A stretch of 35,967 nucleotides of DNA, taken from assembly GCA_030833315.1 (NCBI GenBank), contig JAURHM010000035.1, positions 1 to 35,967 of the forward strand. Reading direction: 5' to 3'. The notes under the pieces were generated by a model, which did no database searches, had not been told where the DNA came from, and saw nothing but the letters and a program-made list of their open reading frames with translations. Origin of the DNA: Burkholderiales bacterium (lineage in GTDB: Bacteria > Pseudomonadota > Gammaproteobacteria > Burkholderiales > SG8-41). The position numbers and the translations under genes were made by a program. Of the stretch, positions 4,797-8,900 are shown piece by piece (positions within the stretch are counted from its first letter, which is position 1; the number at the start of each line of letters is the position of its first letter).

Positions 4797-4810
4797 TTAA
4801 TCTAAGTCAA
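4797..4810 (+). promoter_or_regulatory. Candidate FNR/Anr box upstream of frdA
   Basis: TTAAT-CTAA-GTCAA matches the FNR/Anr consensus TTGAT-N4-ATCAA at 8 of 10 positions. It lies 86 bases before the chosen frdA start. Its centre (4803.5) is exactly 41.5 bp upstream of a start point placed 7 bases after the TAATCT -10 box (start point near 4845), which is the canonical geometry of a class II FNR-activated promoter. Known: FNR/Anr proteins activate fumarate reductase genes when oxygen is absent. Inferred: that this site is used here. Confidence 0.6.
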
Positions 4811-4832
4811 ACAAACCGGAATTGGCCCCGCT

Positions 4833-4838
4833 TAATCT
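4833..4838 (+). promoter_or_regulatory. frdA: Candidate -10 element of the frd-rquA promoter
   Basis: TAATCT matches TATAAT at four of six positions. No good -35 hexamer lies 17 bp upstream, as expected for an activator-dependent promoter where an FNR dimer occupies the -41.5 region. The predicted transcript starts near 4845, giving a leader of about 50 bases before the frdA start. Confidence 0.5.
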
Positions 4839-4895
4839 ACGGGCTAACGAACAAGAACCGGGCGGTTGCGGCCGGAAAACTCGGGAGCGGGTGCA

Positions 4896-6671
4896 GTGGA
4901 AATCATAAAAACGGACGTTGCCGTTCTGGGTGCCGGTGGCGCGGGCTTGCGTGCCGCAATTGCACTGGCTGAAACGCGGCCTTCACTGAAGATCGCACTG
5001 GTATCCAAGGTGTATCCGATGCGCAGTCATACCTGCGCCGCGGAGGGCGGTGCCGCGGGGGTGATCAAGTCCGATGACAGCCTGGATCATCACTTCCACG
5101 ATACGGTCGGCGGCGGTGACTGGCTGTCCGATCAGGATGCGGTCGACTACTTCATCCGTGAAGCGCCCAAGGAGTTGCTGCAACTCGAACACTGGGGCTG
5201 TCCGTGGAGCCGCGAGGCCAACGGCTCGGTGGCGGTTCGCCCGTTCGGCGGCATGAAAAAGCAGCGCACCTGGTTTGCGGCCGACAAATCCGGCTTCCAC
5301 ATCCTGCACACACTGTTCCAGACCTCGCTGAAGTTTCCGTCGATCCAGCGCTTTGATGAATACTACGTGACCGACCTCATCGTGGAAGACGATCATTGCC
5401 GCGGCTTTACCGCGATCGAAATGCGCAGCGGGCAGATGAAATTCATCCGCGCTGATGCGGTCATCATTGCCGGCGGCGGCGCGGGGCGGATGTTCCCCTT
5501 CACCACCAACGGCGCTATCAAGACCGGCGACGGCATGGCGCTGGCCTACCGTGCCGGCGTGGCGCTGAAGGACATGGAATTTGTGCAGTACCACCCGACT
5601 GGCCTGCCCAATACCGGAACCCTGCTGACCGAAGCCTGCCGCGGCGAGGGCGGCATTCTGGTTAATAAAAACGGTCGCCGCTTTTTGCAGGACTACGGCA
5701 TGGGGCCGGAGACGCCCGTCGGCCAGCCGGTGCTGAAGACCATGGAACTGGGGCCGCGCGATCGCGTGAGCCAGGCGTTCTGGCATGAGCAGAAGAAGGG
5801 CAATATGGTACCGACGCGCTGGGGCGATTGCATGATGCTCGACCTGCGCCATCTCGGTGAGAAAAAAATCAATGAACGCCTGCCGCTGGTGCGCGATATG
5901 GCGACGAGTTATCTCGGCGTCGATCCGGTGACCGATCCGGTTCCGGTGCGGCCGGTGGTGCATTACATGATGGGCGGCATCGATACCGACATCAAAGCGG
6001 CAACCTCGCTGAAAGGACTGTATGCAGCCGGTGAGTGTGCCTGTGTCAGCATCAACGGCGCCAACCGTCTGGGTTCGAATTCACTGACCGAGCTGCTGGT
6101 GTTCGGGCGGCGCGCGGCTTTGAGCGCGCTGGAACATCTGGATCGGGGTGCTGGTGCGGCCAACGAGGCGGCGGTGACTGCGGGTGCGAACGCGGCACAG
6201 GCGAGACTACGCGAACTGTTCAACCGCACGGGTGGCACGGAAACCATTGCCGGCGTGCGCAAGGAAATGATGGCAACGATGGAAGAACACGCCGGCATTT
6301 ACCGCAGCGGTGAAGGTCTGCAAAAGGCCTGCGCAACGTTGTCCGCGCTGCGCAAACGTTATGCCCGCATCGAGCTGCATGACAAGACCAATGTCTACAA
6401 TACTGATCTGCTGCAGGCCCTGGAGCTGGGTGCGATGCTGGACTGCGCCGAGGCGGTGACGGTCAGTGCGCTGGAGCGCCGGGAATCGCGCGGTGCCCAC
6501 CAGCGGCTGGATTTCATCGCGCGTGACGATCAGAAATATCTGCGCCACTCGCTGGCGCGTTATCGTGGCGATCATCCGCCCGAAATCGGTTATTCGGATG
6601 TGGTGATCACGCGGTCACCACCGGGAGTACGAGACTACTCTGGGGATAAGAGTGCGGGAGAACAGAAATGA
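4896..6671 (+). CDS. frdA: Fumarate reductase flavoprotein subunit FrdA
   Basis: 591 residues from the GTG at 4896, which has GGAG eight bases upstream; a TTG at 4866 would add ten unlikely residues. The protein tracks E. coli FrdA closely. GAGGAG (12-17) binds FAD, and H45 in [10 protein letters not shown] is the His that carries covalent 8-alpha-[17 protein letters not shown] with CRGEGG supplies the dicarboxylate site and the proton-donor Arg. HYMMGGI and [13 protein letters not shown] complete the active site. It reduces fumarate to succinate on the cytoplasmic face of the membrane, with electrons from FrdB. The gene overlaps frdB by ATGA. FrdA-type rather than SdhA-type sequence and the A-B-C-D gene order both point to a quinol:fumarate reductase. 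Confidence 0.96.
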
Positions 6672-7411: not shown

Positions 7412-7806
7412 GTGCCCACGGCAAACCCTATGTGCGTGAAGTCTCCCGCTACGGCTGGTTTTTCCGCAGCCCGCGTTATTTGCGTTACATGGCGCGCGAG
7501 GTCACATGCGTGTTCATCGGCCTGCATGCGCTGATCCTTATCATGGCGCTGATGCGCCTGTCCCAGGGGCGCGAGGCCTGGGAAGTTTTCCTGGCCAATC
7601 TGACAAGACCCGCTGGCGTGGCGCTGCAGTTGCTGATTCTGGTGTTTGCGGTTTATCACTCGACGTCCTGGTTCAACGTCACGCCGAAGGCGATGCCGGT
7701 GCAGATCGGCGAGAACTTTCTGCCGGGCGCGGTAATTGTTGCTGCGCATTACGCCGGATGGCTGGTGGCTTCAGTCGCGGTGCTGTTTCTTGCGGGAGTG
7801 TTCTGA
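7408..7806 (+). CDS. frdC: Fumarate reductase membrane anchor FrdC
   Basis: 132 residues; E. coli FrdC has 131. It begins like FrdC (GKPYVREVSR) and has three hydrophobic spans: roughly 33-53 (VFIGLHALILIMALMRL), 68-85 (GVALQLLILVFAVYHS) and 108-130. The short cytosolic turn WFNVTPKAMPVQ between the last two corresponds to the WFELAPKA region of the E. coli protein. Glu31, just before TM1, lies where E. coli FrdC has Glu29 at the menaquinol site. With FrdD it anchors FrdAB and binds the quinol. This two-subunit type normally carries no haem. The start overlaps the frdB stop (ATGA). Confidence 0.93.
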   Translation: MSAHGKPYVREVSRYGWFFRSPRYLRYMAREVTCVFIGLHALILIMALMRLSQGREAWEVFLANLTRPAGVALQLLILVFAVYHSTSWFNVTPKAMPVQIGENFLPGAVIVAAHYAGWLVASVAVLFLAGVF

Positions 7807-7807
7807 C

Positions 7808-8149
7808 ATGGCCAAATCCAACAAGCCGATTGTCTGGGGGCTGTTCGCTGCAGGGGGTACGGTCACGGCTTTCCTGACCCCGGTGTTGCTGCTGCTGACG
7901 CTGTTGCCAGCCTTCGGTGTGATGCCCGGCCTGCTGTCCTACGACAATCTTCGTGGTTTTGCCGGTCACTGGTTCGGACGGCTGTTGGTCTTCGGTATAC
8001 TCTTCCTGATGTTGTGGCATGCCGCGCACCGGCTGCGGGTCACGCTCCATGATTTCGGCGTGCGTGCGGACGGTCTGGTTGCCGTAGCCGTGTATCTGGC
8101 GGCAGCGGCGGGTACTGTGGCCACGGGTTATTTCCTCTTAAGGATCTGA
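7808..8149 (+). CDS. frdD: Fumarate reductase membrane anchor FrdD
   Basis: 113 residues against 119 in E. coli. FrdD-like positions are PIVWGLFAAGGTVTAFLTPV in TM1, LSYDNLRGFAGHWFGR before TM2, and LWHAAHRLRVTLHDFGV, which corresponds to the LWCGLHRMHHAMHDL segment of E. coli. There are three membrane helices. With FrdC it forms the quinol-binding anchor in the inner membrane. It starts one base after the frdC stop and ends one base before rquA. In this operon the quinol is probably rhodoquinol rather than menaquinol, so differences from E. coli near the quinone pocket would be of interest. Confidence 0.92.
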   Translation: MAKSNKPIVWGLFAAGGTVTAFLTPVLLLLTLLPAFGVMPGLLSYDNLRGFAGHWFGRLLVFGILFLMLWHAAHRLRVTLHDFGVRADGLVAVAVYLAAAAGTVATGYFLLRI

Positions 8150-8150
8150 A

Positions 8151-8900
8151 ATGACGAAAGCAGTTGCCGCCCGCCGTGTCGACGGGGAGGGTGCCGCTGT
8201 GTCTGCACAGGCGCAGGTGCTGAAGGCGCCGGTGGCAATGCCTCGTTATCTCGAACAGACCTACTGGTGGGCTTATGTGCATCCGAATGCGGTGCGCGTA
8301 TTTGAACGGCAGTGGCTGGTCAACCTGATCCTGTGGGGCAATTACAACCGGCTGCGCGATTCGGTGTTCCGCGAACTGAATGCGCCGGTGGCCGGCAGGA
8401 TGCTGCAGGTGGCTTGCGTCTACGGTGATTTCACGGAAATGCTCGCGCGCCAGCTCGGCCCGCAGGGCACGCTGGACGTGGCGGATGTCGCGCCGGTGCA
8501 GATCGACAATCTCAAGCGCAAGATCAATGGCCATCCGCGGGTAGCGGTGCATCACCAGGATTCCGGCGATCTGGTTTTTGCCGATGCCGCATACGATTAC
8601 GTGGTGCTGTTTTTCCTGCTGCACGAAATGCCGGAAGCGGTGCGTGTAAAGACCGTGGCCGAGGCGCTGCGTGTAGTCAAACCAGGCGGCAAGGTGATTT
8701 TTGTTGATTATCACCGGCCGCACTGGATGAATCCCTTCCGTTACCTGATGATGCCGGTGCTCAAATGGCTGGAACCGTTTGCAATGGATTTGTGGCGGCG
8801 TGAGATCACTGCCTGGATGCCGGCTTCGGTCAATCCGGCAAAGCTCGGAAAACGCACGTTTTTCGGCGGGCTTTACCAGAAGGTCGTCATCACGCGCTGA
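8151..8900 (+). CDS. rquA: Rhodoquinone biosynthesis protein RquA
   Basis: 249 residues with the fold of class I SAM-dependent methyltransferases, but with the altered signature of RquA. The motif I region is LQVACVYGDFTEM (85-97) instead of the usual GxGxG loop. Other RquA-like blocks are YLEQTYWWAYVHP (33-45), VNLILWGNYNRLRD (57-70), LFFLLHEMPE (153-162), FVDYHRPHWMNP (184-195) and GGLYQKVVIT at the end. Known: RquA converts ubiquinone to rhodoquinone by replacing a ring methoxy with an amino group, reportedly with SAM as amino donor. It follows frdD by one base with a good AAGGA ribosome site, so it should be co-expressed with fumarate reductase. Recognition is from remembered family motifs, not a search. 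Confidence 0.88.
   Translation: MTKAVAARRVDGEGAAVSAQAQVLKAPVAMPRYLEQTYWWAYVHPNAVRVFERQWLVNLILWGNYNRLRDSVFRELNAPVAGRMLQVACVYGDFTEMLARQLGPQGTLDVADVAPVQIDNLKRKINGHPRVAVHHQDSGDLVFADAAYDYVVLFFLLHEMPEAVRVKTVAEALRVVKPGGKVIFVDYHRPHWMNPFRYLMMPVLKWLEPFAMDLWRREITAWMPASVNPAKLGKRTFFGGLYQKVVITR

Follow-up and report, generated by a model that had tools for sequence, protein, structure and literature searches.

The stretch of DNA analysed here, called the window below, comprises 35,967 nucleotides of a contig from a Burkholderiales bacterium. It carries the four genes of an Escherichia coli-type fumarate reductase (FRD), frdABCD, followed directly by rquA, which encodes a rhodoquinone biosynthesis protein. 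We consider it very probable that this frdABCD-rquA operon serves low-oxygen, rhodoquinol-dependent fumarate respiration in an organism that otherwise uses ubiquinone (UQ). What we observed is the identity of the genes, their compact layout, a conserved promoter-like geometry, the presence of UbiE and of a separate SdhA in the genome and, where rquA and frd are linked, their joint inheritance; co-transcription, FNR binding, synthesis of rhodoquinone (RQ) and its use by FrdABCD are predicted from these data. In the proposed mechanism, an FNR-type regulator would switch the operon on at low oxygen, and RquA would replace a methoxy group of UQ by an amino group from S-adenosylmethionine (SAM), giving RQ (about -63 mV). 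RQ would accept electrons from NADH through complex I and, as rhodoquinol, pass them on to fumarate through the E. coli-type FrdABCD, with the result that NADH oxidation and proton pumping could continue when oxygen fails.

Layout and gene identities

Positions 4896-8900 of the window hold five co-directional open reading frames on the plus strand, in the order frdA-B-C-D-rquA. Successive genes are spaced by -4, -4, +1 and +1 bases, in agreement with the overlaps or one-base gaps described in an earlier note on this DNA, and purine-rich Shine-Dalgarno-like sites (GGGAG- or AAGGA-like) lie upstream of all five starts. In the list below and in the text, labels beginning with G denote surveyed genomes (G000 is the window's own genome), those with L loci or stretches, and those with C contigs.

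4797-4810, plus strand: putative FNR/ANR-like site TTAATCTAAGTCAA, 8 of 10 consensus letters; a site at the same place in L071 and L072 (8 of 10) and in L073 and L074 (9 of 10)
4833-4838, plus strand: -10-like hexamer TAATCT, 22 bases after the FNR-like site; TANNNT at the same distance in L071-L074 and L158
4896-6671, plus strand: frdA, fumarate reductase flavoprotein, 591 residues, GTG start (or possibly the in-frame TTG at 4866); NCBIfam NF006686, 953 bits (cut-off 854)
6668-7411, plus strand: frdB, fumarate reductase iron-sulfur subunit, 247 residues; NF009051, 364 bits (cut-off 333); E. coli FrdB 1kf6_B, E 6.9e-91
7408-7806, plus strand: frdC, membrane anchor, 132 residues; PF02300, 119.8 bits (cut-off 24.2); 1kf6_C, E 1.7e-15
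7808-8149, plus strand: frdD, membrane anchor, 113 residues; NF003977, 90 bits (cut-off 60); 1kf6_D, E 1e-14
8140-8144, plus strand: Shine-Dalgarno-like AAGGA preceding rquA, within the 3' end of frdD, read from the sequence
8151-8900, plus strand: rquA, rhodoquinone biosynthesis protein, 249 residues; NCBIfam NF038261, 322 bits (cut-off 175)

A complete E. coli-type FrdABCD, as proposed before, was thus confirmed by NCBIfam and Pfam families, for FrdC by Pfam only. The other NCBIfam FrdA model, TIGR01176, scored 931.6 bits, slightly under its cut-off of 932.7, and FrdC remained under the cut-offs of both NCBIfam FrdC models, the curated equivalog test (83.9 of 143 and 80.3 of 234 bits). The FrdC anchor therefore appears divergent, and we call the enzyme E. 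coli-type on the evidence of Pfam, gene order and residues. Two separate anchors, FrdC and FrdD, were recovered both by PF02300 and PF02313 and by chains C and D of 1kf6.

Downstream of rquA lies a convergent ABC-F gene, whose 3' end is at 8916. In L071 and L072 the operon is likewise bordered by a DUF1932 gene and the ABC-F gene. L073 has both of them at its contig ends and L074 has the ABC-F gene only; in L072-L074 rquA and the ABC-F gene are separated by 0.8-1.7 kb of other sequence. Because the same flanking genes recur around the operon in L071-L074, the layout is neither due to chance nor an artefact of binning or assembly. A foreign composition of the operon was rejected, since its GC and GC3 resemble those of the flanks, and so was a location of rquA on known plasmids, as no plasmid record was found at E 1e-30. 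Rfam and tRNA scans of the whole window returned no matches. At 34196-35959 (plus strand) the window also encodes a flavoprotein of the FrdA/SdhA superfamily, whose best model, PRK08275, scored 340 bits, under its cut-off of 587.

Identity of RquA

The last protein of the operon scored 322 bits against the RquA model and 65 bits against the next family. It contains the blocks VYGD (an atypical motif I), LFFLLHEMP, VDYHRP and GGLYQK, most columns of which are conserved across 26 aligned RquA proteins of the order, single letters varying. The identification of the last gene as rquA was therefore borne out by a curated model and by conserved blocks. RquA aminates UQ, with SAM as donor of the amino group, and in Rhodospirillum rubrum RquA the aspartates D118 and D143 are reported at the SAM site (PMC9814641). 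Two conserved aspartates of the aligned RquA core, D83 and D108, are 25 residues apart, the same spacing, and by this spacing, in our own mapping, they would correspond to D118 and D143. In a tree of RquA rows, from which copies shorter than 190 residues or under 120 bits were excluded, the window copy sits beside L071-L074. The tree contains RquA rows only, without an outgroup; the separation from UbiE and MenG comes from the model scores.

Quinone background and the second rquA

The genome (3.1 Mb, 98% complete) encodes UbiE (NF001240, 427 bits, cut-off 378), which agrees with the earlier note's assumption of a ubiquinone-containing lineage. The menaquinone check used one marker per pathway, MenD and MqnA. 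MenD gave eight weak matches, the best with 102 of 244 bits and none over the cut-off; the best two, which were scanned, are acetolactate-synthase-like. The MqnA family PF02621 gave one match, scoring 20.5 bits by itself and 31 bits when neighbours are counted (cut-off 26), in a protein that fits SsuA-type binding proteins much better (97.5 bits, itself under the cut-off of that model). We conclude that this is a ubiquinone lineage with no convincing menaquinone marker, and that menaquinone is unlikely to be the partner of the FRD. A UbiU/V-type protein (PF01136) was not detected in the genome; UQ is therefore presumably made by the oxygen-requiring route, and such a system would be better suited to conditions that are micro-oxic or that fluctuate than to permanent anoxia. 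A separate SdhA is encoded on contig C9 (TIGR01816, 944 bits, cut-off 727), adjoined by an SdhB that was named by eye.

The earlier note described the operon as self-contained. This description did not hold, as the genome carries a second, distant rquA (G000:C28:33769-34422, within the stretch L035:13706-15034; 291 bits), besides lacking a detected UbiU/V. The operon is therefore not the sole candidate source of RQ. A recent duplication was rejected: the two copies are 55.5% identical and fall in different starred groups of the RquA tree. Upstream of the second rquA are genes for a molybdopterin oxidoreductase, an iron-sulfur protein and a DmsC-type anchor, then a DUF2726 gene and about 0.7 kb of sequence; for the first three (L035:7751-12326) no NCBIfam cut-off was reached among the models listed. 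An SRPBCC-domain gene begins 3 bases after the second rquA. Homologues of this gene were observed directly after rquA in G224 (L063) and G016 (L070, where RquA scores 174.6 bits, just under the cut-off), and about 1.5 kb before rquA in G103 (L069). Among four congeners and seven other members of the family that were sampled, none had RquA over the cut-off.

Upstream region of the operon

When FNR, which we scored with what we take to be its consensus, acts at a class II promoter, its box lies near -41.5 with the -10 element at a fixed spacing. The first base of the FNR-like site, 4797, coincides with the position at which the earlier note let the operon begin. Upstream of frdA, sites with at least 8 of 10 consensus letters occurred in 21 of 53 upstream regions, against 4.9 expected from Markov shuffles, and sites with at least 9 of 10 in 10 of the 53, against 0.4 expected. 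Six of the 21 site-bearing regions have TANNNT 22 bases further on, while no other distance between 12 and 35 was seen more than twice. This promoter-like geometry, which resembles that of class II and is kept in the four close relatives L071-L074, points to low-oxygen control through a putative regulator-binding site.

Distribution of the layout

We surveyed 399 genomes of the order and 369 of the class, the window's own genome being in both sets. RquA exceeded its cut-off in 35 of the 399 order genomes, and for the 34 others the stretches around rquA (about 10 kb on each side, less at contig ends) were compared with the proteins of the window. None of the FRD-like neighbours was found in 29 of these 34 stretches. 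Concerning the remaining arrangements, rquA precedes frdA in G264, and G381 has divergent frdA and frdB homologues. In G265 and G134 (L046:1989-5452 and L047:9928-13391), genes distantly related to frdA and frdB (28-37% identity) stand directly before a Group-distant rquA, another complex-II-like arrangement of neighbours.

The picture differs among the closest relatives of the window's RquA. The set of named genomes consists of the best 80 of at least 523 confirmed RquA loci and is therefore biased to close RquA kin; four loci begin too near a contig end to be counted, leaving 76 that could be assessed. The adjacency survey called for earlier found frdD on the same strand and at most 900 bases upstream of rquA in 49 of these 76. 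The best-scoring loci include Competibacteraceae, Contendobacter, Rhodoferax and betaproteobacterial metagenome-assembled genomes (MAGs). The layout is thus common among loci whose RquA lies close to the window's in the tree, and rare across the order. Two of the loci, L140 and L081, are titled as a Bordetella parapertussis MAG and a Synechococcaceae cyanobacterium MAG; their rquA and frd resemble those of environmental Proteobacteria, and the labels look doubtful.

Starting from the fumarate reductase instead, FrdC matched at E 0.001 in 29 of the 399 order and 20 of the 369 class genomes, and was over the Pfam cut-off in 13 and 13. With a threshold of our own, 100 bits, 12 order and 11 class genomes remained, 22 of them distinct. 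Eight of these have RquA over the cut-off, four have MenD, none has both and ten have neither; among the ten, G608 has an RquA match of 173 bits, just below the cut-off, and G142 a weak MqnA-family match over the Pfam cut-off. The earlier idea that RQ explains the occurrence of E. coli-type FRD in ubiquinone lineages is hence incomplete. Where FrdC and RquA occur together, rquA follows frdD in four genomes (G000, G030, G596 and G466), precedes frdA in G264 and lies elsewhere in G329, G064 and G103. In G103 the rquA homology (L069:9436-10235) is split over two reading frames, by decay or sequencing error. The genomes with an E. coli-type FRD and without RquA or MenD over the cut-off include G328, G142, G299, G727, G657 and G546, of which only G142 passes the MqnA Pfam cut-off, weakly.

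Joint inheritance of rquA and frdBCD

For 49 linked loci, the distances of RquA and FrdBCD were strongly correlated (Mantel r 0.847, reached by 0 of 2000 permutations); this set consists of the rows of the FRD tree minus L041, L140 and 15 rows without RquA. That tree, on concatenated FrdB, FrdC and FrdD, and the residue comparison below were both based on the 66 of 76 operons that had both FrdC and FrdD, after dropping duplicates (L162, L189-L191) and fragments (L079, L081, L087, L131, L170 and L174). All 49 rows with adjacent rquA fall into one clade with support 100/99, which is over-sampled for rquA because most rows entered the set through RquA. Inside the clade, at two or more places, are also four rows from genomes bearing another methyltransferase gene, called MT and described below. 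Outside it are the FRDs of genomes with MenD, of genomes with neither marker and of genomes with a differently placed rquA. Linked RquA and FrdBCD evolve together. Rows linked to frd are clustered in the RquA tree as well (11 changes of state against a shuffled mean of 38.8), yet they do not form one group, and so linkage has been lost or gained repeatedly.

Quinone-site residues

The earlier note predicted that the quinone pocket of FrdC and FrdD is adapted to an aminoquinone. This was not borne out. The residues which we take to form the quinone site (FrdB Q225 and K228; FrdC R28, E29, H82 and W86; a tryptophan, a histidine and an arginine of FrdD) are in the window the same as in E. coli. 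FrdB Q225 and K228 and FrdC R28, E29 and W86 are invariant in the 49 rows with adjacent rquA, and FrdC H82 is replaced by N in 22 of them. Changes of the clade near the site (FrdC A32C and G30V; FrdD G19A and H84R, the flagged FrdD positions being one off between mature and chain numbering) recur in most, if not all, of the four MT rows, relatives that have no rquA in the operon. We therefore rejected a tuning of the pocket to RQ: the presumed catalytic residues are unchanged and the clade changes are inseparable from descent.

Another occupant of the slot after frdD

In G293 (of the same family as the window's genome), G271 and G103, an uncharacterised UbiE-family gene, MT, and a further gene stand directly after frdD in place of rquA. 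Their FRDs belong to the clade of the window's enzyme, FrdA being 78-82% identical. MT is a member of the UbiE/COQ5 family (PF01209, 110-122 bits) and reaches the cut-off of none of the 25 listed NCBIfam models, which include UbiE, MenG and MpqE; its partner, of about 210 residues, had no Pfam or NCBIfam match in the two of three copies scanned. A search with the three MT proteins found 11 of the 399 genomes at E 1e-40. Identity to the MT of G293 is 50-76% for the copies of the ten other genomes and 30% for the housekeeping UbiE of the window's genome. MT is paired with its partner in six of the 11 genomes, and no partner was found in the stretches covering the other five. In G248, the remaining genome of the FRD clade, the pair lies elsewhere, between genes read as tpiA and nuoA-D. 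Pairs of MT and the partner of about 210 residues were located at:

L151:7530-8968
L152:10510-11950
L159:7929-9327
L201:9511-10956
L203:9144-10498

The six FRD-clade genomes of the 399-genome survey thus comprise two with rquA in the operon, three with MT in the operon and one with MT elsewhere. If MT were independent of this FRD clade, its frequency of 11 in 399 would give a probability of about 3e-7 for its presence in all four by chance; this figure takes no account of how the genomes are related or of the use of three of the four to define the search. None of the four had MenD over the cut-off or an MqnA-family match. It is conceivable, if rather unlikely, that the position after frdD is a site for quinone-enzyme cassettes, which holds either rquA or MT, and that MT with its partner makes a second, undescribed low-potential benzoquinone, or RQ by another way, for the FRD. 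In the excerpts of open-licence literature on fumarate reductase, ubiE and rhodoquinone operons we found no description of the MT variant. MT in place of rquA after frdD is a new finding and suggests that the slot is swappable.

Evaluation of alternative explanations

Several observations weigh against rhodoquinol-dependent fumarate respiration by this operon. Order-wide, rquA follows frdD in only two of the 35 RquA genomes (the window's own and G030), and 30 of the 34 others have no full frdABCD in the stretch compared; even among the best-scoring loci, 27 of 76 are unlinked to frdD. In four genomes that share the window's FRD clade, the operon lacks rquA. Concerning the promoter, the FNR-like site of the window has only 8 of 10 letters, five of the six well-spaced cases belong to one lineage, operons of the Rhodoferax and Competibacter types mostly have no site, and a sigma-70 promoter scan gave no match. 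The whole window (1-35967) holds 19 FNR-like sites with at most two mismatches; shuffled sequences had a mean of 9.06, and the highest count among 100 of them was 16. FRD operons without adjacent rquA also carry sites (10 of 10 letters in L158, 9 of 10 in L154), and the site therefore argues for low-oxygen control and not for RQ. Concerning the quinones, one Pfam match to MqnA passes its cut-off once neighbours are counted, the second rquA could be the main source of RQ, and the failure to detect UbiU/V is unusual when compared with the 73 of 84 RquA genomes reported to possess an oxygen-independent UQ route (PMC11707229).

Part of this evidence would also fit an explanation in which RQ serves a general low-potential pool and its tie to FrdABCD is shared low-oxygen regulation rather than a matched pair. 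We regard this as a real, if less probable, alternative; it is compatible with most of the fumarate respiration proposed here, and the likelihoods given to the two overlap. The unlinked loci and genomes just mentioned speak for it, as do the second rquA near a DmsC-anchored molybdoenzyme cluster and not near frd, the quinone-site residues shared with E. coli, and the many kinds of respiratory neighbours listed for rquA in the excerpt of PMC5953543. However, the near-adjacent frdD in most of the best-scoring loci and the shared inheritance of rquA and frdBCD at 49 loci argue for a closer tie. A FrdABCD that mostly acts as succinate dehydrogenase or uses ubiquinol, with rquA incidental in the operon, seems improbable to us. 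The ten of 22 FrdC genomes with neither RquA nor MenD over the cut-off indicate that FRD may work without a known low-potential quinone, but three of these ten carry MT, six lie outside the FRD clade and G608 is unplaced in the tree; moreover, a separate SdhA is over its cut-off in the window's genome and the FNR-like promoter points to low oxygen. We can give hardly any credit to the idea that rquA encodes a different SAM-dependent quinone methyltransferase. Although Pfam assigns to it only generic methyltransferase and UbiE domains, the RquA model is far over its cut-off, other models, those of UbiE/MenG type included, are far under theirs, and the protein is close to the other RquA rows of the tree without outgroup; an ordinary UbiE or MenG was rejected on these scores. 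Rhodoquinol-dependent fumarate respiration remains the explanation we prefer.

Comparison with known systems and significance

The genes of the window resemble E. coli frdABCD (PDB 1kf6) in the four subunits and, as we take the E. coli operon to be, in gene order and quinone-site residues. The E. coli enzyme works with menaquinol; unlike E. coli, the window's genome has no convincing menaquinone marker, and rquA is attached to the operon.

That rquA occurs beside complex II genes is already known and is not new here. Its linkage to complex II and other respiratory genes in Proteobacteria, as in the window, was published by Stairs et al. (2018, PMC5953543), where an operon is suggested and a second frd/sdh operon is mentioned in 12 bacteria. 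The excerpt of that study speaks of linkage within 15 genes, whereas here gene order, promoter, joint inheritance and an FRD clade are resolved. The R. rubrum RquA is of the same family, with the atypical SAM motif and the conserved aspartates (PMC9814641, PMC6529003); unlike it, the window copy stands in an frdABCD operon, and the named genomes closest to its own are betaproteobacterial MAGs. Ca. Thiosymbion oneisti has frdABCD and rquA, is said to miss menaquinone and has frdA up in anoxic sulfidic conditions, gene adjacency not being stated in the excerpt (PMC8269255). Multiple rquA genes, as in the window's genome, are reported for Spirostomum ciliates (PMC7813818); these are eukaryotes, while the two copies found here are bacterial and distantly related. 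We found no paper in the open-licence literature on rhodoquinone in connection with Competibacter.

It has been asked whether Pseudomonadota that gained a low-potential quinone gained a fumarate reductase along with it (PMC11707229). In the lineages surveyed here, RquA and FRD are often inherited as one unit, and therefore this question becomes testable. If MT makes a new quinone, an E. coli-type FRD could be equipped in a further way, in addition to menaquinone and to rhodoquinone made by RquA.

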